The notes beneath the pieces are model-generated. The model did not search any database, was not told the origin of the DNA, and saw only the letters and a program-made list of their open reading frames with translations. Below, in pieces: positions 1,748 to 62,453 of a stretch of 64,000 nucleotides of DNA; position 1 is the first letter of the stretch; each line of letters opens with the position of its first letter. A program made the position numbers and the translations under genes. The stretch comes from Isoetes taiwanensis (taxonomy: Eukaryota; Streptophyta; Lycopodiopsida; Isoetales; Isoetaceae), in NCBI GenBank assembly GCA_021234155.1, contig JAJEKV010000320.1, positions 62,001-126,000 of the forward strand. Reading direction: 5' to 3'.

Positions 1748-4700
1748 ATTGACTCCCACTATGGGTTGAATGTACAGATACGTCTCAGATGAGCAAATGA
1801 AAAGAAGTAACAATTATCCTCCAAGATCACATGTTTTTTTCTGCTGAATGTTTCTTGTGCTCTTTGCTATACGTTCTTAGTTCTTATCTTCTAAAAAGAT
1901 GGATACTGTATCTAGAGTTTTGCGTTTACAAACAACTCAATGAAAATTTACATTTGAGCAAGCTTTGTCTGATAAACAAACAATACATAGGATCACAAAA
2001 TAAGAATAAGGCTCCTGGCTTTGGACATCTAGCATACAGATAATACACAAATAATGAAGTATTGAAGATGAAATTTAAAGAGGAACATAATAATATGACA
2101 TTGTTATCTGAGTTATTTTCTTTCTATTCCATATCAAAATTGAACTTTTTTATATTGTTTTACATGATGGAACTCCTCCTTAAGAGCTCTGTCGTCTGCA
2201 GCAAGCGATAACTCATAACGCAAATTCCTGCTAAAAGCCATCTGGAACATTAAAACAAAATCAATCTTCCTTATGACGAATGTTCAGGTTATTCATTCTC
2301 TCACTGTGAATAGAAAATGCGTGGTCTTGTAGAACATGCACTTGTTTGCACATCGAAAAAGCTTAGAGTTGTTTGACACTGCAGATTTGAATGTGGATTA
2401 ACTTGTTTCCTGCTAATGGATCTTCGACAATGCATGCCCTTGGTTGAGGTCCGTTTTTGGTAAGCCCAATTTCCATTCCCTTCATCTGCATTTCCTCCAA
2501 TTTCCATTGTCCATTGTCTGACGAAAATGTCTGACGAAAATTCCGGAAACATGTCTTTTAAGATAATCTAACGTCTTAAAAGATAAGCTCAATATCTTTT
2601 TAAGTTGCTTGCTTACTTTTGTATAATCCTCGAGGTCCTATCGGTTTAGGTGGTCTGATGGATTTATTTAAATAATGTGGGTTGGCTATAAAATTGTGTG
2701 CCAACCATTGTCCCATTGTGGCATTAATTGTGGCATTCATAGAGCCTTGTATGAGGGGAAGTGTGTTCTTGCATATCACCACAATCAACTGGAATATTAT
2801 GTTTGGAATGTATATACATTATGGCAGTATCCAATGTGGAAGGACTTTATCTGATGGAATGCCTGAACGAAATGTAATCACTTAGAATATTATGATTTCA
2901 TCCATGTCTCGATAGTGGGAACCTTGAGGATGTTGTAAATATGTTTCTAAGAATGCCAGAGCAGTGTGTATTCTCATGTCTGCTACAGGATCGAGGAGAA
3001 GTGGAGTTGTATAATTGCTCTCCTTGAGAACCAGGTAGGCTTTGCAATCATGCTGCTTTGTGACGAGCCTGCCGAGTTGACCCTCCTGGCAACTCGGGAT
3101 CTTGTCAAAACTTCCACTAATTCTAGGTTAGTATTATGGTGAAGAATTGAATCTTCCCTTTGCACAGTTGAAATTACATACTCCAAACTCAATGGGAAAA
3201 TACTTATGAATTCAATGTAATTATATAATGTTAACATCCAAAGAGTTCACTATTCTCAACAAATATAACATCTAACTGTGAACAATTCAACCCAGAAGCT
3301 TCGCTCAACCACGATCCTCAGTTGCACTGCTGCCATCCCTTGCTTATTCACTGCACATGCACTCACTGGGGTTAGTCCTCGTGACTAAGTGGGGATCTCC
3401 TGGCTGCCACTATATGCGTGGAAATACTTTGGAAATCTTGGATAAGCACAAACACAGACGGAAAATCCTACGTGAGTACAGTGCTAAGACAATGACAACA
3501 TAATTCAAGGAAATATCAAACTCTGACCAACAAAAGCAAAGAACATAGCCAGAACAACAAAGCATCAGAAACATAGCTCCGGGACAATGGGAAGTTCGGC
3601 CCGACCTACATGCAGAGGCCACGTTAGCGAGAGAAATGCCTAGCCACTCACATTAGAGCCCCGTTCATATGAGTTGGTGGGGTGAACCTCGCGGTGTGCG
3701 ATACCCTTCCTTCCCCCCGTCGCCCATTTGGAGGACCGCTTACCATGGAATCACAGAGGTGACGTAGCATCCCTGCCAGGAGAATTACGCCAGGTGTCAC
3801 AGAGCATAAGAATAACACAAAGAAACAAAGATGAATATGAGCATGCCATAGCAACCTAGGCCACCGAACCTAGAAGCCCGACCCCAGAGGATCCAAGAGA
3901 TAACAAAATACCAAGACAACAGTGGAACAATGCAAAGACCAAGACATGTGAAGTTCATTAGATATTTAGTATACATGTTCCTACATTTTACCCTTGCAGA
4001 GGTTGCCCATACAACCTACTCATGTTGAAGCGAGCTCAGCGATGAAAACTAGAATAACAATTCAAAGATGAAGAAATATCAAATCATTTATCACATTGAT
4101 GTAAATCCAATGTCGTGCACTTTGCTGAATAAAATAGAGATATAAGCATTCTCCAATGTGCAAAGCTTACCTTCGAATCATTTCCCCTATAAGGACTGCA
4201 AATATACTCATGTCAATGTCACTCACTAGTTATATTAACAAGTGTTTCTTATTGCCAACGTAGGATTCCTTGCCATAACCACATTGTAAAAGCCCCATAA
4301 GCTTCATATTCAGATACTCTCTTCAACCTAGTAATGTGAATCTCACCCAAATTCCCCACATTCTGTCGAGTCCCCATATTGACCTTTCTTGCTCTGCAAT
4401 CCATATCTATTCGCTTTTCTTCCTTTCTGGCTAACTCCATAGCCATGGCGATCAATGTTGTTTTCTATTTTACCAGATCAAGGCTAAATATTTCCTCCCA
4501 GTTCTCTGAAAAACATACAATGTGGCTATTCCGACTCTGCATGGCAGAAAATGTCTCCCTTCTTGCAACAAAGCTTGCAACAACATGTTTTTAGAAGAAG
4601 GAATAAATCTAAGGGAATTGGGTACAAATTCTTTATTTTGGCTAAGAATCCAAGGTCAGATCTTCTGGATGACTCAAACTGTAGGAACTTGTGGCTGAAC

Positions 4701-5997: not shown

Positions 5998-6893
5998 TTA
6001 AAAAAAAACAGACGTGAGAATATAAAAGACATTTAAAACATAAAGATAGTGTAGGGTTGCATCTTGAACCTTGGAATCCAAATATGCACTAAGGATTTAA
6101 TATTTGAAGTATACTAGATAACCATCGTTTAAATATTTAGAACTTGAACAATTATATTGAACTTGAGAATTCACATGTGATTGTGTCGAATGGAATGGAA
6201 TGTGTGATGTTAACGTTAATAAAGCAATCGTCTAATAAAGCAATTGTGCGTACAATAGCCTCTCCAACTTGTTTCCTCATCAAAAAGGAAAAAAATGTGC
6301 CAATGGCGCTTGTTCCCATCGATCAAATGCACATTCAACTTGATAATTAACTAATACTCAAGTCCAATGTGACAAAAATTTGCAAAACATTTCGCCTAAC
6401 CTTAAATGGGGATCTCCAGAAACTCCTGCCAATGCCCTGGATTCAACCCTATAATTATGGAGCACGAAAACAGACACCATAAACAAATACCCAATTACAA
6501 AACCCACATGCCCAAATGACAAATACACATTTGGAAGCCGAAGAAATCTTTGAGATAATGATTAGAAAGGTGCAAAGCAGAGCGAATCCGGTTGGGTCCA
6601 GGAAAGAAGCGGTTGGGTATGCCAAGAACATCTCGCAAGAAGGATTCAAGCATAGGACAATATCTACTCATTTTCCACCATACTTTCCACTTCTCACTCC
6701 ACGACTTAGATACATCCAGGAAAGGAAGAATTTATTGTTGAAATGGCCCTTTGATAAAATATGCTATTTATTGGACAAGAAAATCCCGATGTATACGGTG
6801 GAAGTGTAAAAACGTTTGCTTCAACCGAATAAATCAATTCAATGAGATTAAATCAATGATTTTGTTTTCATTACCGGTAAAAGTGGACCTTAC

Positions 6894-7660
6894 CTTGATT
6901 TCCTCTTCGAGTAATATGAAGATATAGGCGTGCAAACTTCTTGTGTCTTTGAGATCACAAAGTCCCGCTTAATACTGTAATTTGGATTTGTCTCATATAG
7001 AGTCTTCATTTGCCTTGTAGATTTAGCATCTTCTTTTTCTTGAAGCCAACACGAAAAAAGGCATCAAGCCATATTACACCAACTGGTTTCCCAAGAATCG
7101 GAGGTCCATTTGATATTATTGGACCCGGCAAGTAAGCTGAACCGATAGGTGATTCAAGAACTGGCTCAATTTCTAGAAAAGGCAAAGCGGTATGATGTCG
7201 TCCGATGCAAACTCACAAAAAGGAGAGTGTGACCCATCCTAGTAAGTCGATTGCCCAATAATTACTCATTCCTTGTATAACTCCCCAAGAAATCAAATAT
7301 CCTACCACAATTCCGACAAATGACCTAAAAAGCAGGCTGGGGAACAATTATAGATGTGAAAATCAGAGATTCAAATGGGGCAAAGCCGATAGGCAAAGAA
7401 AGAACCCCAAAGCAGTTCATTTTTGAAGAAGGTCGCTTTCTTTCGCAAGTATGGTCATCCATCCAAAACCACACTAATAATAACCAACAGCCGCGAGACT
7501 CTTTCGAAAACTCCAACTTAAATCTGTGAATGAGCACATGATAAATCCCCAACGGGAGCCCGTAAACAACAATTAGAGTAACGATCTTCGCAAATATCAT
7601 CGCACCCCAAGACTGCGTCTTTCGACTTTTCAAGAATCCCAAGGCTCCTCAGCTCCATAT
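6894..7660 (-). pseudogene. Rhomboid-like intramembrane protease pseudogene (minus strand)
   Basis: Reading the minus strand, a frame encodes SLPIGFAPFESLIFTSIIVP (near 7330-7400), then after frame changes CFLGHLS (7314-7334) and then GIVVGYLISWGV. Together this reproduces the C-terminal active-site block of plant rhomboid-like proteins, in which the His of FLGHLSG is catalytic and the next segment is a membrane helix ending G-Y-L-x-x-W-G. At least two single-base frame changes are needed around 7313-7340, so the copy is broken (or the sequence has errors). Downstream on the same strand, 6894-7210 contains another open stretch (IGSAYLPGPIISNG, KPVGVIWLDAFF, then YETNPNYSIKRDFV) ending at a good GTAAGG donor; it may be a further exon, but I do not recognise it. 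7667-7954 minus may be a degraded upstream exon. Confidence 0.5.
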
Positions 7661-29827: not shown

Positions 29828-29970
29828 TGTAACGGACCCATGGGAGACGCTCGAGTGGATCTTGGTGTCGCGTTCCCAAGACACCGCATAAATGGGTAGA
29901 AGCGACTACTCATAAACGTCTAGACAGTTTTGCCCAGTTGGCTAAGGGCATGTCGGTTAGGAACGTTACA
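29828..29970 (+). repeat. TRIM 5' LTR
   Basis: 143 bases, TG...CA ends. Differs from the 3' LTR by a few substitutions and two single-base indels. Confidence 0.9.
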
Positions 29971-29972
29971 TT

Positions 29973-29986
29973 TGGTATTAGAGCAG
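29973..29986 (+). promoter_or_regulatory. TRIM primer-binding site
   Basis: TGGTATTAGAGCAG two bases after the 5' LTR; plant elements usually carry TGGTATCAGAGC, complementary to initiator tRNA-Met. Confidence 0.85.
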
Positions 29987-30091: not shown

Positions 30092-30236
30092 TGTAACGGA
30101 CCCATGGAAGACCGCTCGAGTGGATCTTGGTGTCGCGTTCTTAAGACACCAGCATAAATGGGTAGAAGTGACTACTCATAAACGTCTAGACGGTTTTGCC
30201 CAGTTGGCTAAGGGCATGTCGATTAGGAACGTTACA
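30092..30236 (+). repeat. TRIM 3' LTR
   Basis: 145 bases, preceded by the polypurine tract at 30080-30091 and followed by the CTTGG duplication. Confidence 0.9.
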
Positions 30237-30241
30237 CTTGG

Positions 30242-31511
30242 TCTATGAAAATTAGATCTTCTATCTAGAATGTAGCCTTACTTTTTTCAGTAGGACGCGC
30301 ATTAGCATGGAGGCGTGGCCGACACGCCGGAATGTCCTGTAAAAGGACATTGTTAAAACGTAAAGTTTAGGATTTATTCTGGCGGCTCCGGCTGTGGCGA
30401 TGGCACCCTGCTCGGTTGTGGCGCCCCAACCCCAATTTGCAGCCCTGCTCCGGCTATGGCACCGTAACTCAGTTGTAACGGTTTCTTCTGGTTGTAAATT
30501 TCTGTTATATTTGTGCTTACGTTTGTGTTTCTTGTGCATCTCAGATCTTGTTCTTGATCGATTTCTAGGAGCAAGAAATAAAGCCTTTAAGGCTACAGAT
30601 TCCTGTTTACCTATCAGCATGGTGTCTGTCATGTTAATTGCCTGTAGCTGTGCCCTATTGGCATAAGCCCAACAAATCGATTTTTGATCCGTTTTTTCCA
30701 CATCCATCAATGCTTCCATACTTTTGCCTGTTTCTAGGGTTTTTACTTCATCTATTCCCATTTTGCCGAAAGCAGGGGCTCGATTTTGGATGACAATACT
30801 TCTTGTATCACAATTTTTGGATCGGCTTCCCAAGCTCGTTGCAAGTCTTCATATAGGTGCTCTCAAGCTTTTTTTTAAGGAATCTGTTGCTGGAGCTTTG
30901 GACCGGGGTTCAATTCCCTGGGCAGCAAATGTAATGTTCTGTAAAACTAAATAAGAAAGCAGAATGCGAGTCAAAATGCAGGCAGAAATCTTAGAATGCA
31001 AGTAAGAATCCCCGAATACAAGTAAACTTCAAAATATAGGTAAGAAATTCAGTATGTCGGGTAAAACCTTAGAATGCAAGCGAAGAGGACATTCCATGAA
31101 AGAAAACATGGCACGTGGCGGCAGCTCATTGGCGGAGTAGCCCCTAACCAAACTTTACGTTCACGTAAACAACACTTACGTGTCATCCTGCCCTAGCTTC
31201 CATTGTGGTGCTGACACGTGGCAGTTTCAATTCCAATAATGTGAGGTAAATTTAGTTGCATTCTGTTTTTACTTGCATTCTGATTTTTTTGCAGAAATTC
31301 CGATTTTCTACTTACATTCCTGATTCACACTTACATTCTGAATCACATTCAAAGCTTGAAACACATTCAAAGCATAATCAAAGCTTGAAATACATTCAAA
31401 TTGGATCATTCAATGCTGGAAACAAAATCAGATATTGATTATCTCAGTTATACAGTTATATGCTCATCTTCAGCATATGAAATTCACTGAATCATATCAA
31501 TAAAACACATA
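30242..31511. other. Non-coding stretch with inverted words and G-box-like sites
   Basis: A hairpin AATGTCC-TGTAAAA-GGACATT lies near 30331-30351. ACGTAAAGTTT recurs in inverse orientation near 31150, and GGAATGTCCT (30328) in inverse near 31087. A tRNA T-arm-like piece (GGGGTTCAATTCCC) is near 30905. Degenerate GAATGCAAGTAAG words at 30960-31090 face TTACTTGCATTC-like words at 31260-31345. Two CACGTGGC boxes lie near 31112 and 31215. The open frames (for example 30261-30833 minus) have no recognisable domain. Probably overlapping old elements; it forms the 3' flank of the recombinase gene. Confidence 0.4.
31163..31190. repeat. Left arm of an inverted repeat flanking the recombinase gene
   Basis: The reverse complement of this 28-base stretch matches 34842-34869 at 24 positions (core CAGGATGACACGT). 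Orientation is inner to outer on both sides. Confidence 0.4.
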
Positions 31512-33876
31512 TCACTTGAAATTGAAGACACAGTTATGAAATGTTTTCCCTACAACACCACTAAACCGACGTGCTGCGACCACCTTCTCCAGATCATCCC
31601 AATGATCATTTAAGAATGTATCATCTTCAACTTCTTTTCGCAGATCTGCATGTGACATTAAAGGCCCTGGAACATCGATACTAGGTACCTGAACTTGCTT
31701 GACAGCATCTATGATTGATGTAGAACCTGATACTGGAGCAGAAATTATTGAAGCAGATGTAGAAGATACAGGATTACCATGTGGAGCTTCAACATTTTTG
31801 CCAAACTGCCCTTTATCGTACGCATTAAGCTCATTCTTATAAACCGCTTCAAACATCCTTCTAGATCCAGTTTCATCGAACGACTTGCCAGCTATCTCCA
31901 TTGCAGCCTTCACTTGCAAATCTGCAGTTTTATCATAGCTGAATATAGCAGAACATGCAACTAATTAGGAAAACTACACAAATAAAGAAACATGCCAAAA
32001 AAATTGTACAATAATTACCTTTGAAAAGCCTCTACAGTGCGATGTCCAGTAACTTTCATACCAATATTAATTGGTACACCAGCTCGTGACAACCTGGAAA
32101 CTAGTGTCGTCTGTCCACTCTTTCCACTGAAAGAGCCATCAACTCCTATAAGCTTCATCATGTACTTCAACCATTGTGACATCTTTCGACCATTAACCTT
32201 ATGCTTTACATTATACCATGCCTGCAAGATTTAAAGAGTTTAAGTTTTAAAAATTAAAGCTATTATGAAATATAAAAAACAGTTATTTATCGTTTTACAT
32301 GGTGAAATAATTGCCTGCTTGAATAACCAGTCATCATCAGGAGTTGAGTAAGGGTAATGGCGGAAAAATTGTTTGAAGGTCACAATTACATCTTCTTCAT
32401 AAACACGAAGCGGCATCCGAAAGGATTCTTCTTGGTACCTGTCCATGCTTACGTCATACTGCTTTGACAGCCTCTCATTATATTCTACGTACTCCTTCCC
32501 ATTTTCCGTTCTTATCTCAAAATCTGCCACCTTCAGACCTTCTAACTCGTCTTGACCCCGAATACCAAATCTGGAAACACAGTAAAATAATAGCATCTTT
32601 TGCAGACCAACGGAATGTTGAATTCCATGGTCAACATCAAATAGAAGGGCCTGTTCGTTGGCGAATGAAATTTCATCCACTTTCTTCCTTTTTTTACACA
32701 CCCCTGGTGTCATCCTCGATCTCCTCATAGAGGCAACACATGCAAGCCTTGCCGTGAAAACAACATAATACTTAATATTGAAAGGAAATTCCTCTATACC
32801 ACTTTCTGCAATCTTCCGCTCCTGCTCACGTCGAATCATGCATTCAAATCTTCTAAACAAGTCTTGAAGCCTGCAAGAAAGAATGTAAGAGGTAATAAAA
32901 GAATGTCAAATAAATAAAAGAATGTAAACTAAAAGAATGTCAACTAAAAGAATGTAAACTAAAATAATGTAAACTAAAAGAATGTCAACTTACGTTTCGG
33001 GGGGTACATTGATCCATCTAGCTTCACAACTTGAAGCATAAATAGCTCCAACATGCTGGAAAACTCCTTCAAATCAAGCTCCTCAATTTTCTTATCAACA
33101 TGAATTTTCATATGAACCCTCCAACAGTCAAACCGCCTCCTCGCCCACTGCATTTTTGCCTCAGACTTGCTAATGCCGCCGCTACAAACTTCTTGCAGCA
33201 AATCTTTATCGATTTCCAAAAAGGGAACTGTTGGTTGTTTCTCAAAATTCTCTTTCTCGCTTTCACATGGAACTACCACGCTTAGATGCCCATTAGATTC
33301 TGCTTCTTCAAGGTATTTTGTAATTGCGTCATCAGAAAACTCAGTTTCAAAGCTAACATCTTCATCCTGCGGGTTAGTTACATCACTTAAAACAGAAACT
33401 TCAGAACTGCCGGCAGCTTGAGAGATGTGCAGATCAAAGCTTGGAGTCGAATCCATGCCTGCAAGCCTCCAGGCAACATTCTCAGCATCTCCAATCATAT
33501 AACATAATGCATTGACAAGAAAAATTAGAGGGAATCCCATGATCCAACCTCTACAATGTCTAAGCACTAGTTTCTTCACCCTGTGTAACAAAAAAGACGA
33601 GCAAGAAACTATACAAACATATAATGAATAAAAGAACAGAATATTAAGAAACTAGTAAAGACAAAATATCAGAATATCGGACCTAAGAACTTGTAAAGAC
33701 AGAATATCGGACCTAAAAACCCTAAGATCATATACAAGCAGGAACATAAGAAACCTAACATCTAAAATAAACCAAACTTTTTACCTTCTAAAGCCTGATG
33801 TGCCCTTAGATTTGTCTTCCCACCAATATTTGGCAAAAAATACAACTCGCGGGATCTTCCAACACCTGAAACGCAT
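31512..33876 (-). CDS. Crypton/DUF3504-type tyrosine recombinase gene, five exons
   Basis: Inferred minus-strand exons: 33876-33785, 33580-32994, 32870-32315, 32221-32019 and 31938-31512, about 620 codons. Exon 2 ends in a SAM-like core-binding domain (SEAKMQWARRRFDCWRVHM, then MLQVVKLDGSMYPP). Exon 3 carries the start of the catalytic domain: LLFYCVSRFGIRGQDELEGL (first catalytic Arg in FGIRG) and the strand pair YVEYNERLSKQYD. Exon 4 has SGKSGQTTLVSRLSRAGVP and TGHRTVEAFQ. The nucleophile Tyr follows at the start of exon 5 (SYDKTADLQ), restored only by splicing. The usual H-x-x-R is K-x-x-Q, so strand cleavage may be lost. Exon 3 to 4 needs a GC-AG intron. Exon 2 to 3 is one base out of frame unless an acceptor 8 bases further on is used. 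Start: the ATG at 33876 follows an in-frame stop. No reverse transcriptase nearby, which argues against DIRS elements. Confidence 0.78.
32915..32992. repeat. 15-base tandem repeat in recombinase intron 2
   Basis: Five near-identical units of AAAAGAATGTMAACT fill most of the 123-base intron between exons 2 and 3, stopping at the splice donor. Related GAATGT/ACATTC words occur 3' of the gene (31300-31400). Confidence 0.75.
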
Positions 33877-33971
33877 TTGATTTGCAAGAATCACAAACAA
33901 GTGAGTTAATAGCAAAATTTAGGGGCCAGAATAGAATAAAAGCAAGCAAGAGTCCAAGCAGTTGAACCTAA

Positions 33972-34628
33972 GGGTGAAATCACACTTGTGCCGGCCCAGG
34001 ATATAAAATTTTCATTCGCCAATAAAATTCTTGCGTTTCAAATTCCTGGGCGCCCCCTCTATCACACTCAGAGTGCCCGAGACGCAAGATTTCCTGGGCA
34101 GGGTGTGTATTCTTGGGCGGGGGTTATCCCTGACCAAGATCTTGGGCACCGCCACGTCGAAGCCACGTTTGCAAAGAAATATCGAAGAAGAAAGATTAGA
34201 GTTCTTACTGCTTCAACAGGTACTCGGTTTAGAAAGATTCATCAGTAGATTCTCGCAGAATGAAGCCGAATTTGTGAAAAACACTGGCAATGATGCATCG
34301 TAAAAATTCGAACTATCAGAACCTAAAAGACCGAAGCTAACGCTAAGACCCAAAATCAAGAGAAAGCTTTAATTTGTAGAAAGCTAATCCGTGTAAGTGA
34401 TTTTCGTAAATTTGGGCAATACTAGAACGCGTCTGAGTCATGCAAGATGTCGATTTAGGGTTCTTCGATTTTAGGGTTCTTCAAGCTCCGACTGTTTTCA
34501 TTTATAAAAAATTTGACATGGCATGTCATTTTTGGGCGCAAGTCTGATACCGCTATCTTGGGCATCTTCATCCCCTGTCCAAGACATAAAAAACTCAATC
34601 CTGGGCGGGCTATAGTGTGATTTCACCC
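33972..34628. mobile_element. PIF/Harbinger-like MITE, 657 bp, TAA target duplication
   Basis: Terminal inverted repeats start GGGTGAAATCACAC and stay recognisable for about 32 bases, ending CGGCCCAGGAT on the left and with its counterpart on the right. The element is flanked by TAA on both sides (33969-33971 and 34629-34631), the 3-base target typical of PIF/Harbinger. No transposase. It lies in the ~800 bases between the divergent recombinase and roadblock gene models, so it has replaced or split their shared promoter region. Confidence 0.8.
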
Positions 34629-34689
34629 TAAGCAAAAAAAACTCCAAGATTTTCGAAAAATCTCCACAAAAGGTTCGGAATGCTACAAA

Positions 34690-34794
34690 ATGATGGCGCC
34701 AGCAAAAAAAAATGCAAGCAAGATGCTTGCAGACCTCGAGCGCAGCGCGCCACGAAAAGGTCCGGCAACAGCTCGCCTTCGCAACCAAAAGGAG
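34690..34794 (+). CDS. Possible first exon of the roadblock gene
   Basis: Open frame from ATG (MMAPAKKNASKMLADLERSA, basic and Ala-rich) to GAG|GTAAGG, a good donor in phase 0. The next candidate exon at 35314 starts in phase 0, so the two join in frame. There is no homology evidence for this extension, and roadblock proteins are usually short, so it remains a guess. Confidence 0.25.
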
Positions 34795-34841
34795 GTAAGG
34801 AAAAAAAATTTGCGAGAAGGAAATTTTTTTGGACTGCCACG

Positions 34842-34869
34842 CAGGATGACACGTCAGTGTCGTCCACGT
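34842..34869. repeat. Right arm of an inverted repeat flanking the recombinase gene
   Basis: Partner of 31163-31190. ACTGCCACG words also occur beside both arms. Confidence 0.4.
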
Positions 34870-35313
34870 TACAGGAATGTTTTTTTAGTAGACAGGGCTC
34901 CGCGCGTTCCTGTAGTGGTGGGAAAATTACTTTTTCCGTTGCTATTATGGAACCCGTTACCAGAAGGTTTAAACCAATGACAAAATCCGTCGCCTCACAG
35001 CCCTAAAACGCAGCCACTGAATCCCTTGGTACTTGCATTCTCCAGCACCTGCGCTTCAGCCTCTTCAATAATAAGGTAATAAAATGTTTGCTTTGCTACT
35101 GTAGATCGATGTATTTTTCAAGCGGAATGATTTGCAGGAAGTATATATAGAGCTTAATTTCCTTTCTAATTAAATTTTTTCCATTTTCCAACAAAAACGC
35201 CACTATCTGTACTTGTTTACGCAGATTATGGCATACATACTAGTGTTCCCGTTGCACCATAAATTATTGGTGGTCTTCCTTAGTTTATCTCAGTTGGAGT
35301 TGGTTTTTTGCAG

Positions 35314-47089: not shown

Positions 47090-50000
47090 ATGTGCTGGAA
47101 TATTAACTCTATTAGTCAGTATAAAATAGAAGTAGTAGGTGATTTATTTACAAATGTAGACATCTTGTTTTTTCTGGAAACATGCGAGAATGAAGAAAAA
47201 AGTTTTTTTTTTTTTTTGGATGCAAGATGTTTTGATTTTATTAAACATAAAAAAAGAGGTACACGACCTTATTGGAGTGGCTTCACAATAGGCCAGATAT
47301 TCAAATACAAGCACAATGGTCTACCCAATAGTCCGAGACAGAGGATCCAAGAGCGGTACCATTCCTTTCAAAATTTTGGAGGGAAGGTGGAGATTACTCG
47401 ATGGTCCAAAGTTAAAGCCATCTGAAGCTCATACCCGCAAGATCCAGACAGCTGAAGAGCACAAGGAGCAAATATCATCCTACGCGTTAACTTGGCATGG
47501 ACTATCTTGCTACCAGCTATACTACAAGTGACTCTCCCTTCCATTACTGTACTATGGGATGTATGCACCTTCTTCAAGCAAAGTAGCAGATTACACAAAC
47601 CTGCCCCAGGGGGGTGTCCACTCGCTCTCAAATGCTGCTTCACCTGCCTGCATAGACTTCAACTTCAGGACAACTCACTTAAGGCTCCAGGTTCAGGTTC
47701 CCTTGGAACGCAAGGAACATGGCTCCATGAGTGAGCAACTGTTAAAGAAATCTGGTCTCCCGCCCAAGACTTCCTCCTTTAATCTCCTCCATCGCCCATC
47801 TGGCCCAGGCCATGAGTTATCCTTCAATCCTAATCTCCCCCTAGCTGGGAAAGGGAAGGACTTAATTTTTCTGCCCCAATGGCAATCATGTCAAGTAGCA
47901 CAGCAGGCTGATATGCAAAGAACGGGCTCAGCCCAAAGGACCCAACTGCCTACCATACTGCAAGGAGTGCAGCATTTACCCTGGCTTCCCATTTAACCTT
48001 TGCAAAGGCCTAAAAAACAAGACAAGATTACCTCCAGGACGACCCACAGCTAGGCCTCAAGAACTTCCAGAGATAGGCGGGCCTCAGGTGATGTCTGGGA
48101 TCTCAGAGAAGATGGGCAAAGTTTAAATGCACCAGATCAAAGGTGCCTTGACCACCGAGCTTTTGCTACAACCTAAACCTGGAAAACAAATCAAGAGGAT
48201 GGCTAGCGCCCGGGCACGGCGCCTGAGGCCCTTTCCAGCCATGATTACGAAGAGGTCCGCAGGGTGGCGGCTGCGCCGCTGCCATAGGCGGCTGCCCTAA
48301 GCCGCTCGAACCCTAAACGCCATCGTCTATAAGAGAAAAAAAGTTTACCCGACATACAGGGATTCATTTTGTTACAATCAGTTTGGTATAATAAAGGTTG
48401 GCGCCTAAAGGGTCATGGCGGGATAGCATGCTATGTAAGATCTCACTTGAGAAAAATGGTCAAAATAGTTGAAGGAATGGGTTCAAAGCAACATATCTGG
48501 GTTGAAATACCTGGCCAAAAAGGTAAGATTTTTGTGGCAGGATGTTACTTTCCTCCAAGAGAATCACCAATGTATAACACAGATCTCTTAGACAGAGATG
48601 ACCCCTTCTTTAGTTTGGAACAGGATGCTCTTTCTTTGATGTCGCTAGGTGATGTTCTCATACTAGGTGACTTTAATGGGCGTATTGCTAATAAGCAAGC
48701 AGCTTTAGCCAGCTTGGAAGGGGAACCCATGTGGGTTGAAATGCTTGATGACACAGAGATGTACCAACAGGGTTGGAATAGAACTACTGCAGACAGAATC
48801 AGATGGCCTACGCCTCAAGGCAAGCATGTACTCAATATGTGTAGCGGGCTAGACTTATTGATATATAATGGTACACGGATATTTCCTGGCACAGATAAAT
48901 GCACATGCAGAAATGCTAGTGTTGTTGACCTTGTTCTTGCTAAAGCTCAGTTTGTGGATCAGGTGAGGCATATATCTATAGGGGAAGAGATGGAGAAGAT
49001 CTCAGATCATGTTCCACTTGCAATTGTGTTAAACACAAAGAAATTTGAATACAGTCAAGACCGCAATGTTTTCAAGCCCAGAATACGCATGAATTATCAT
49101 AAGGCGGAAAAATACATGGAGAAATGTGAAGCAAAAGTATCTGAGATAAGCTGGCCCACGGGTATTGAGGCACTAAGTGAGAAACTGGCAGATATGGTAT
49201 TGGGTGTGGCTAGTGACCATTTTGTCTCACATAGAAAACTAAAAGGGCTACCATGCAACAGTTGGTTTGATGCATCATGCAAAGAAAAAAGGGAAGCATA
49301 CAAAAAAGCAAGAGGGGCAGTTAGACAGAGACTCAAAAAGGAATACATAGCATGGACCAAGTCGAAAAAGAAGAAGTATATTTACCAAAGACAACAGGAT
49401 TTGATCAAGGACACCATAGCAAACCCCAAATGGTTCTGGAATGAGCTTAAACCTAAAATGCAACAAGAGGCACATTTGGACCCAGAGACATTGATCGACC
49501 AAGTACGCAAACTCTACCATATGTCGGATGTTAATGAAAACAGTAATATTGATCATTTGCAAAACACGACATGGGGCTTCACATTGGAAGATTTAGAAGA
49601 GGGGCTGAGTAATCTTGCCAATGGGAAAGCGGCTGATGCAATAGGGCTGGTTGCAGAAATGTTTAAATGGGCAGGCAAATCAGTGCACTTAGTGTTATTG
49701 TCTCTGTTTAACTCTGTCTTGAATGGAGGATTCCCACGAACATGCAATTAAATAGAGTCATTCCTCTTTACAAAAACGGGGATGAGGGCGACCCAGGAAA
49801 TTATAGAATGATTCTGGTGAGCAGCCTATATGCCAAATTGTTTGCTACTATGTTAAACAATAAGCTGAGCACTTGGTCAGAAGCACATAATGTTAGAGCC
49901 ATTGGGCAAGCTGGCTTTAGGCCTAAAAATCCACAAATGGATCATTTGGTCACTCAAGGCGCTATGATTGATTCAGTTAAAGGGAAGAGAAAACCACTCT

Positions 50001-51444
50001 ATGCCCTTTTTGTGGACTATGCCAAGGCATTCGACACAGTATCCCGTGCTCATCTATGGAAGAGGATGGACAACTTGGGGGTACCGATTGAGCTCAGGCA
50101 GGCAGTAAAGCTACTCTATGAGAAAGTTTTAGTGCAATTATCATCCCCTTACATTGAAAAGTGCACGGAATTAGTAGAAAGCAATATCGGGGTGAAGCAA
50201 GGCTGCCCCTTGTCGCCGGTTCTGTTTGGTTTATTCATAGACCAACTGGAGGCTTGGATAATGGAGTATGGCGGGGACGGGACTCCATTGTCAAACTATG
50301 TGATCTTGTTGCTCTTATACGCGGATGATGTGGTTCTTCTCTCTCGCACAGTTGCAGAAACATCTAGACGCATTGGCTCACTTTTGTGACCAGAAAAATA
50401 TGAAGGTGAATATGACGAAGACTAAGATGATGGTTTTTGGAACCAATAAAGTGGATCATTTGAATTTCTATTACCAAGGGGAGAAGGTGGAAATAGTATC
50501 CTCATATAAATACTTAGGGATACATGTAGACAAAGGGCATAGTTGGAACCTTGCTGTTGAGCACAGGGTGAACGGAGGCTTGAAAGCCCTATATAGCATG
50601 CAAAGTAAAAGTGGAAAAGCGGAGATATGGGATTTTGGCTTGAAACGCACCTTATTTCGGGTGCTTGTGCAGACAGTTCTGTTATATGGATGTGAAGTAT
50701 GGGGCCCAGGCCTATCAGCAGACTCTTGGAAGAACATTGAGAAAGTGCAAAAAAAATTCTTGAGAACGGAACTAGGCACTAAGGCTCAGACTCCATATGT
50801 TGTTGGCGGAGTGTGGTATGATACCACTAGAGGCTGAGGCATTGTGCAAAACTCTTACATACCTTTGTAAGATATGTTTTGATATGACGGAAGAGACCTT
50901 GCCACGACTACCCTTGGAAGAGACAAGAAATAAGGGATGGTATGCGGATCTTGTGGAATGGATGAGGAAGTGGGGGTTAGACATTCTACTCCTACAAGAG
51001 AATCGATCGAACATTAGAGGATGGGTGTGTGGCCATCTCATTAGAAGGAATTGGAGGGTCCCGGAAACGAAAGAAGAGTTTTACAGAAAATACATAAACC
51101 CTACACTCCAAGAAGCCAAACACCTTCAGGAGAATCTATCTCGAAGCACGAGACACAGGATAAGCAGGATGAGGCTTAGTTCTCATAGACTTGGGGTGGA
51201 AGTAGGACGTTGGAGTAACATCCCCCATGAATTGAGGTTTTGCATGTTATGCAATATGCAAGAAGTTGAGGATGAGTTACATGCCCTCATAAGATGCCCT
51301 TCATATGAGGGGATCCGACATAAATATAGCATACATTCAAACTCATTACAGGAATTCTTTGAATTGCCTGGGCATCAAATTGGAAAGTATCTAAAGGAGT
51401 TGATGACCCATAGAGAACACCTGTTAAACAACCAAGGGCAATAA
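47090..51444 (+). pseudogene. LINE ORF2 (endonuclease, reverse transcriptase, zinc motif), interrupted
   Basis: Second ORF of the LINE, starting MCWNINSIS 22 bases after ORF1. Endonuclease blocks: CWNIN, DILFFLETCENEE, then (after a nested insertion at about 47203-48340) GFILLQSVWYNKGW, LILGDFNGRIA and SDHVPLAIVL. Linker: NSWFDASCKEKREAYKKARG. Reverse transcriptase: LYALFVDYAKAFDTVSR, IGVKQGCPLSPVLFGLFID and the catalytic YADD at 50318-50329. Tail: LLYGCEVWGPGLS, AECGMIPLEAEALCK and a C-x2-C-x9-H-x4-C motif (CMLC to HALIRC). Frame changes near 49745, 50375 and 50820, plus the insertion, make it inactive, yet the codons are well kept, so decay is recent. It is not a plant L1 in tail structure; the exact clade is open. 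Confidence 0.88.
47203..48340 (-). mobile_element. Poly(A) retroposon nested in the LINE endonuclease
   Basis: Starts on the plus strand with a T run (47203-47217) followed by the complement of an AATAAA-type end, so it is inserted in reverse. The target word GAAAAAAGTTT is found on both sides (47195-47205 and 48335-48346, with one extra A). Joining the LINE across it restores an open frame (NEEKSLPDIQGFILLQS), which proves the boundaries. The ~1.1 kb insert has no recognisable domain; its 5' end, GC-rich with GCCGCC words, is at the high-coordinate side. Confidence 0.75.
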
Positions 51445-61407: not shown

Positions 61408-61833
61408 CTAAGAGTCGTAAAAATCTAAGAGCTCGTCAATAGCAAGTTGAGCTGCCTGTTTCTGGTTCTTTTCCAAGAGCCACAAAAAGTGCTCAAATAG
61501 AACAGGGTCGCATGGTATTGTGAGGCCGCCACTATAATCAAATCCATATTCTTCAGAAGATCTGTCGAGCAATTTTCTCATCAAATTGTGGCTCAAAACA
61601 GCAGTTGGGACAACAAATCTCTGCCTTTTCTCTCCTACATACATTGCCACACAACCTTCTGGCATATCTGAAACTTCAACACAGGATGCATCTTCTTCAT
61701 AATCACTGCCTAAGTCACTCATTTGCCCAAGAGAGCTGCCCCTGCTGCTACCCCAAGAACTTGATCTTGATAACCTGTCTTTTCTTTGCAGGAAATCAGA
61801 CAACCTTTGCAATGTAGATCTCAAAGGAGCCAT
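61408..61833 (-). CDS. SAUR family auxin-responsive protein, intact, 141 aa
   Basis: Single-exon gene. The start is taken at the complement of 61831-61833 (MAPLRSTLQRLSDFLQRK), as in the partial gene at the window start; a longer frame to 61923 exists but runs through the TATA region (about 61874-61882) and is rejected. After a Ser-rich stretch (SRSSSWGSSRGSSLG) and an acidic patch (DYEEDASC), the SAUR domain runs from MPEGCVAMYVGEKRQRFVV to LAIDELLDFYDS. All conserved positions are kept. It is the only full-length minus-strand copy in view and the likely source of the truncated copies at 52-56 kb. Divergent partner: the decayed SAUR at 62454. Confidence 0.93.
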   Translation of the reverse strand: MAPLRSTLQRLSDFLQRKDRLSRSSSWGSSRGSSLGQMSDLGSDYEEDASCVEVSDMPEGCVAMYVGEKRQRFVVPTAVLSHNLMRKLLDRSSEEYGFDYSGGLTIPCDPVLFEHFLWLLEKNQKQAAQLAIDELLDFYDS

Positions 61834-62453
61834 GGCAAGCAATAGAAATGGAAGAGTTTGAAGTGAGGGCTTGGTTATATAACCAGATGGGTGGCCCCAA
61901 GCAAGAATGACGATTGAGTACATACTAAATGCTTGGGCCCATTTCTTCTTTACTCTACATGCATTTGTCTACTAGATGTCTTACTAATACCGGCATAGCT
62001 TGTCAACTGCAACCAACTGTTTCCTGCTGGTACAAAGAGATTGTCCAACGTTAAAGCACTTGTAGAGCGGGCCAAATGGTGTCAGGCAACCATGTGGTGT
62101 ATAGGGTGCTCCATTACTGGGCAGTTGGCATCAAATATCATTGGTGCTAAGATAAACTTGAATTCTTCTCTTTCTGACGTGATGGCCAGCCCCATACTTA
62201 GATTGAAAGGCATCAAGCACATGTTATCGCTGACAGCATACCAGACCACAATTTGGCCACCAAGTAGAGACCATTGCAAATGCAATGGCAGCCGCCGAAA
62301 CTTTCCATGCTACTAGCTTGTCCAAGCCATGCTAGACCTGTTGTGTTTGCAGACAACTCCGACAATGGACAACATTTCATTATTATTCATGCATTCCTCT
62401 TTCAATATGCTGCACATTTAAGCTAGTTTATTCCCTTCATCTAGCAGAACGAA
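61834..62453. promoter_or_regulatory. Divergent SAUR promoter region, duplicate of 96-1327
   Basis: A minus-strand TATA-like TTATATAA is at about 61874-61882. Matches to the first unit include GCATTTGTCTAC, TTGTCCAACSTTAAAGCACT, CATCAAATATC and AACTTGAATTCTTCT. It is shorter than the first unit because the second module is missing. Confidence 0.65.

Follow-up and report, generated by a model that had tools for sequence, protein, structure and literature searches.

The gene read on the minus strand at positions 31512-33876 of the Isoetes taiwanensis window (the whole stretch of DNA that was analysed, 64,000 nucleotides long) very probably sits in a broken copy of a Crypton/DUF3504-type DNA transposon with several families, which would be moved by its own tyrosine recombinase (YR) by way of an end-joined circle, with a terminal hairpin as the likely recognition structure. 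The feature reaches past the gene, to about 31165-34914, as an element whose ends are common to other copies. Its parts are listed below, with exon boundaries taken from splice-like sites read in the sequence.

31165..34914, minus strand: whole element, a degenerate copy, with ends common to other copies; right end uncertain by about 3 bases
31165..31192, plus strand: terminal inverted repeat at the 3' end, with GTAAAC outermost (..GTTTAC on the gene strand)
31512..31938, minus strand: exon 5, catalytic Tyr (SYDK) and C-terminal tail
32019..32221, minus strand: exon 4, box II (KSGQ in the window, KSGR in 20/24) and TGHRT
32315..32870, minus strand: exon 3, remaining core-binding domain and first half of the catalytic domain (Arg I, Lys)
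32994..33580, minus strand: exon 2, N-terminal region and core-binding domain ending LDGSMYPP
33785..33876, minus strand: possible first exon, uncertain, from a reading of splice sites
33972..34628, plus strand: nested MITE-like insertion, separate from the system, with TAA on either side and inverted repeats GGGTGAAATCACAC..
34841..34872, plus strand: inner copy of the inverted repeat, 5' of the gene, from an ungapped pair (77% over 48 nt) and other copies
34873..34914, minus strand: remaining part of the 5' terminal hairpin, most of which is deleted in the window copy, from weak folding and copy alignment

The initial annotation had described a spliced plant gene for a recombinase of this type, and re-reading the sequence confirmed the order of its landmarks on the minus strand of 31512-33876: LDGSMYPP, FGIRGQDELEGL, TGHRT and then, past an intron, AFQSYDK. 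The proposed splicing into five exons held up in part: splice-like sites do bound the blocks, but the frame is broken at the border of exons 2 and 3, and the first exon is uncertain. That border is open in the copies L010 and L011, and the third intron requires a GC donor (CAG|GCAATT). The strand pair named in that annotation is visible solely in the predicted model of a related copy. Absent from that annotation were the broken state of the copy, the KxxR in place of the catalytic HxxR, and the unusual ends with their inverted repeats, hairpin and target choice. Judged from its sequence, the window copy is broken: besides the frame break, the box-II Arg is replaced by Gln (KSGQ), one of two such cases among 24 sequences, the hairpin is mostly deleted, and a MITE lies inside. 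This insertion at 33972-34628, which is presumably PIF/Harbinger-like, is missing from L010, L011, L015 and L018 and is thus a later arrival.

As judged from profile comparisons and a predicted structure, the gene is a tyrosine recombinase of the Crypton/DUF3504 kind. A family HMM was built from 24 exon-joined sequences, namely those among 28 (27 loci and the window) in which all four blocks were present; this excluded L013, L016, L017 and L033. This HMM matched locus L036 over model positions 28-332 of 370, from the core-binding domain to the Tyr, with an E value of 3.2e-40 (one target sequence) and 99.7% in a local hhalign comparison. The L036 protein, joined from exon-like pieces, matches DUF3504 at 1.1e-7 (32.5 bits against a cut-off of 29.7) and Phage_integrase at 2.9e-4. 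A genome search with PF12012 (DUF3504) gave 2 loci over the cut-off in the own genome and 0 in 14 control genomes. L036 (G000:C606:41500-44400) and L037 (G000:C31:89200-92200) form a second YR lineage in the same genome, and L036 carries a KxxR box II and TGHKRVETLRNYD. Through L036 these profiles support the initial annotation; the window family alone stays under the Pfam cut-offs. Its best members reach 12.7-14.4 bits of the 29.7 that form the DUF3504 gathering score, and the others have no match. Among ten family ORF pieces sent against DUF3504, two matched over nearly the whole model, L028 and L027 at 0.039 and 0.048, and the other eight had no match; among the joined family proteins the match was found in 2/5, with E values of 0.039-0.13 over the two sets. 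The scores of single members were weak (Phage_integrase E 0.017, PHROG integrase 0.0013), an NCBIfam search of the window family returned nothing, PDB sequence searches gave chance matches only, and Pfam found neither Rep nor helicase in the YR ORFs.

Modelling by AF2 points to the same fold. A first model, made from L021 including an in-frame intron, was of too low a quality (pLDDT 55, pTM 0.25), and a second, of an L021 stretch ending before the Tyr, was modest (pLDDT 63, pTM 0.53). Foldseek gave Cre as the best PDB match of the second model (E 6.0e-5), with large rmsd and TM-scores of about 0.3-0.5; the first 42 rows are all YR entries apart from one chain of a QRICH1-containing Zincore entry at rank 24, and the IntI structure 2a3v was listed at E 0.22. 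Together with the HMM match to L036, this Cre-like model supports the claim that a Crypton/DUF3504-type YR occurs in a land plant. The catalytic residues are retained, with the recombinase itself, across diverged families: among the 24 sequences Arg I and Tyr are present in all, Lys in 22 (the other two have gaps) and the box-II Arg in 20, and R, K, R and Y occur together in 18. The position of the box-II His is occupied by Lys in 24/24, giving KxxR for HxxR, while the third position is His in 18, Gln in five and Arg in one.

The gene belongs to a family of many copies. The own assembly that was searched contains 1,658,258,908 bases in 1110 contigs; the published genome is given as 1658.30 Mb, in 204 scaffolds and 909 further contigs, and was assembled with Nanopore reads (PMC8566536), which bears on whether the frame break in the window copy is real. 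Exon 3 has at least 160 matches, the best non-self one at 93% over the full length, and this count is a lower bound (150 of 1597 candidates were scored). A sister family, represented by L029, has one exon with 40 genome matches, including itself and three others at 97-99%. The family copies are spread over many large scaffolds. In gene orientation, they consist of a 5' GTATA, a hairpin of about 110 nt, an inner inverted repeat, the YR gene, and an outer inverted repeat closing with TTTAC at the 3' end. The same layout is found in the window family and in the diverged L021, L025, L024 and L027, with inverted-repeat sequences that differ. Eight copies measure 3070-3652 bp between ends, with the size of L011 counted from a duplicated 5' end, and within the elements L021 and L027 the sole ORFs of at least 150 aa are pieces of the YR gene. 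At the 5' end of L011, at about 6793-7000, the flank and part of the hairpin are duplicated, as if replication had slipped on the palindrome. The C-terminal ORF ends of L021, L028, L030, L033 and L034 have a common tail, G.F..C.(I/F), after a long variable stretch, in families that are otherwise diverged.

The ends of the window copy were placed by comparison with its relatives. Nine of ten copies compared have the same left start, L023 being the exception; the left end sequence recurs at 41 genome ends with at most two mismatches and at none in the reversed control, and in an alignment of 20 copies to the window the left boundary falls sharply near 31165, with the right end past 34894. When the two window ends were aligned with gaps, the score was 62, under the shuffles (mean 75, maximum 95), and the inverted repeat of this copy therefore rests on the ungapped match and on the other copies. 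Just outside the left end, window positions 31143-31164 (..CCTAACCAAACTTTACG followed by TTCAC) have 18 exact bases in common with the 3' end of the L028 element, and from this sequence two elements seem to abut there, 3' end to 3' end. A 91-bp direct duplication (96%) lies at 29886-29976 and 30152-30242. Farther away, outside the YR element, are a LINE-like endonuclease (PF14529, under cut-off) and reverse transcriptase fragments at 48333-50386 on the plus strand, with an RVT_1 match at 49712-50386 (E 1.7e-20, LINE-like), and, at 61411-61968, an ORF carrying the auxin-responsive domain PF02519 (E 1.3e-25).

Four pairs of joined flanks were searched against the genome for empty sites, giving one exact site (L011), one approximate (L015) and none for L024 and L010. 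The joined flanks of L011 (70+70) were recovered at 96%, ungapped, at C1076:1834254-1834393 and C1076:1815981-1816120, with the junction TCTTTT|GTTCTAG; the two C1076 stretches are alike over 180 bases and were therefore counted as one empty site. No target duplication is present there. For L015, paralogs spanned the joined flanks at 87% and 83% with gaps of 2-3 nt at the junction, one of them reading GTTTTTTAC|GGAAAAG, and a third paralog (76%) was more gapped. The joined flanks of L024 and L010 had no empty site in the own genome and run into the ends of other repeats. The left flank of L010 was considered as a circle junction and rejected, the 3' flank being the start of a sequence repeated elsewhere; a better reading of L010 is that it inserted next to another repeat.

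The flanks themselves resemble the opposite end of the element. A set of 38 flanks of 3' ends, all of the window type, was reduced to 30 by dropping three near-duplicates by hand and five identical ones by script. When these were compared with the element's own opposite end, 169/330 positions matched, against a mean of 87.7 and a maximum of 107 at 43 other offsets. Reading outward, the flanks begin with G (26/30) and T (22/30), and A stands at positions 10 and 11 in 23 and 20. The other half-site, seen in the 5' flanks of eight copies only, is TTTAC-like and looser. The junction motif TTTACGTATANNNGAATG occurs 135 times, against five in the reversed control, and such a motif can mark either the junction of an array or one insertion into a TTTAC target. 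Loci L073-L077, picked for a motif spacing under 320 bases, contain short hairpin-ended non-autonomous relatives arranged head to tail at 199-310 bases, most clearly in L073 and L075. Strong hairpin folding was found at both motifs in L073 and L075 and at one of two in L074 and L077; in L076 the hairpins are rearranged. Another stretch, G000:C985:2253944-2272435, has five junction motifs spaced about 1.5 and 7-8 kb.

The ends, flanks, arrays and empty site fit site-specific recombination by the YR through a circle that we infer. The YR would join the two element ends into a circle with the junction TTTAC|GTATA.., and this junction would recombine with chromosomal sites resembling TTTAC|GTNNNNNGGAA. 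Resident element ends would be among such targets, and head-to-tail arrays would result. The hairpin may be recognized in this process by the YR or by an accessory factor.

The 5' hairpin folds strongly wherever the end is reached in a set of copies that was not picked by folding: six of six copies whose end was reached by BLAST gave fold z values of -7.6 to -16.7 (100 shuffles each), compared with -3.0 for the window remnant and -1.3 for a longer stretch of it. Its pairing was followed in an alignment of 16 hairpins from 13 loci, which were picked by folding energy and are partly close relatives (L010/L011, L021/L025, L017/L024). The source was 20 motif matches with an RNA folding energy below -35; left out of these were a duplicate from L011 that overlapped another match and three matches, in L017, L020 and L023, where the motif had no hairpin. 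Double changes were found at 27/31 consensus pairs, and because the rows are related to each other these represent fewer events than cells. Pairing holds in 90.3% of 485 cells, against 66.5% when shuffled and at most 43.3% when slid, and covariation is 0.636, against 0.217 and at most 0.146, respectively; the observed level of further pair types was reached by 8/500 shuffles. Changes were one-sided in 13 cells and double in 119, and this scarcity of one-sided changes speaks for either constraint or copying between the arms at the DNA level.

It is accordingly a serious, if lesser, possibility that pairing is kept only by copying between the palindrome arms during replication or repair, and not by selection for structure. 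The excess of double over one-sided cells would be expected from such copying, as would the L018 hairpin near 3374 (window orientation), whose apex is inverted compared with that of the other copies (gene strand, CTCCGCGC..GCGCGTCG). However, arm copying should erase mismatches, yet GA/GA internal loops are kept near nt 39 in 10/16 hairpins and near nt 49 in 11/16, and the length is 111-114 nt in 10/16; the independent cases of both features are fewer, since several rows are close relatives. Most likely, the terminal hairpin is a structure conserved for recognition by the YR or by an accessory factor, and it could be used either as a double-stranded palindrome or as a folded single strand. In integrons, a YR (IntI) is paired with a hairpin, attC, that varies in sequence while keeping its structure. 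The Isoetes element is alike in having a YR and a sequence-variable, structure-kept hairpin; what is shown for this hairpin is the conservation of its structure. By analogy, the hairpin with its two GA/GA loops might be a folded single-stranded recombination site for a eukaryotic YR, used in an attC-like single-strand step of transposon movement, but this is regarded as rather doubtful; we know of no such recombination mode in eukaryotes.

Among known systems, the closest comparison is with the Cryptons, which likewise have a YR as their recombinase gene and no reverse transcriptase, and for which a circle has been proposed as an intermediate (PMC3212892). The Isoetes element has a YR with core-binding and catalytic domains (from the HMM, Pfam via L036, and the AF2 model), no reverse transcriptase within its 3.07-3.65 kb (YR-only ORFs of at least 150 aa in L021 and L027), and no target site duplication at its one exact and one approximate empty sites. 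Cryptons of the F, S, A and I groups are described as lacking both long direct repeats and inverted repeats at their termini (Kojima and Jurka 2011, PMC3212892), whereas inverted repeats are present in the window family, L021, L025, L024 and L027. The same source reports terminal direct repeats of 4-6 bp in fungal and stramenopile Cryptons and none found in animals (PMC3212892); in the Isoetes element there is only the partial likeness of flank to end. Further differences from Cryptons are the terminal hairpin of about 110 nt, the KxxR, the lycophyte host and the 160 or more exon matches. CryptonV, a cnidarian lineage with some families that insert specifically in microsatellites (PMC8869645) and a name that also stands in a Repbase table (PMC4455052), was compared by description only: it is likewise a YR transposon with a target preference, but the Isoetes target resembles the element's own junction and not a microsatellite. 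The host genes with DUF3504 (ZMYM2-4, QRICH1, KIAA1958, KCTD1, WOC) belong to the same domain family through L036, and a QRICH1 entry is among the fold matches; they are described as conserved and without most catalytic residues, whereas the Isoetes family is multi-copy and mobile, with R, K, R and Y all present in 18/24. The DIRS, Ngaro and PAT retrotransposons also have a YR, but no reverse transcriptase was found in the Isoetes element; DIRS/Ngaro is disfavoured for the window gene, as the reverse transcriptase at 49712-50386 lies outside the element. Helitron2 elements have asymmetric inverted repeats, terminal hairpins and compensatory changes (PMC3627910) and in some cases target duplications of about 7-19 bp (PMC3627910), but the Isoetes element has a YR in place of RepHel and one long hairpin outside the inverted repeat; no second ORF of at least 150 aa that could be a Rep/helicase protein is present in L021 or L027.

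The likeness to Helitron2 bears on an alternative, considered improbable, in which the YR gene is cargo captured by a transposon with terminal inverted repeats (MULE, hAT and the like) or by a Helitron2-type mover. Inverted repeats do lie on either side of the gene, and Helitron2 elements likewise have hairpins at their ends and inverted repeats that are asymmetric, two related ones also showing compensatory changes (PMC3627910). A captured gene would, however, account poorly for an exact empty site devoid of target duplication, for flanks that resemble the element's own opposite end, for the conservation of the YR and its catalytic residues in diverged families, and for L021 and L027 holding only YR pieces among their ORFs of at least 150 aa. 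The initial annotation had left open whether the gene represents a plant Crypton lineage or a domesticated host gene, and of these the transposon lineage is favoured here. A Crypton-derived domesticated gene, of the sort represented by ZMYM and QRICH1, would agree with the spliced appearance and with the loss of the box-II Arg in the window copy, but is very unlikely in view of the 160 or more genomic matches, the ends common to copies, and the sister family copies that are 97-99% alike. Least credible of all is contaminating fungal or microbial DNA: although the Crypton hosts given in 2011 were fungi, animals and stramenopiles (PMC3212892), the copies lie on many large scaffolds, an auxin-responsive gene is in the window, a MITE-like insertion is in the copy, and searches of viral and prokaryote collections (GTDB genomes, viral contigs) with the patterns used gave no relatives. 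The observations that the initial annotation had named as speaking against its reading did not materialize, as the window reverse transcriptase is a LINE-like fragment outside the element and no sign of contamination was seen; its reading of the gene as a Crypton/DUF3504 YR is, overall, partly supported. The preferred explanation is a YR-moved transposon of which the window contains a broken copy.

Eukaryotic YR genes were called rare in 2011 (PMC3212892). For land plants, a 2022 review of transposable elements omits DIRS and does not contain the word Crypton in its main text (PMC9033089), Cryptons are touched on in general terms by a 2024 plant review (PMC11630846), and a 2015 survey lists Crypton among the superfamilies found in all its taxonomic groups (PMC4438587). 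Repeat tables carry a Crypton or Crypton-V label for Dracaena (24 hits, 1,719 bp; PMC6294377) and Metrosideros (66 bp; PMC13084152), amounts that look like masking noise. In the titles and abstract openings of the top results from the open literature, no paper describing a Crypton in a lycophyte was found, and the word Crypton is not in the main texts of the I. taiwanensis (PMC8566536) and I. sinensis genome papers. Nor did this open literature give a recombinase transposon of this kind described in detail from a land plant, such elements being known in oomycetes, fungi and animals. Because the search covered open journal literature, outside Repbase, subscription journals and preprints, any novelty in print is provisional.

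A vascular-plant YR lineage of many copies, some of them 97-99% alike, would widen the range of this group and give a possible plant source of domesticated genes. It would also provide a recombinase whose ends are defined and whose target rule can be read, and its hairpin makes the use of DNA secondary structure by YR elements a testable question.
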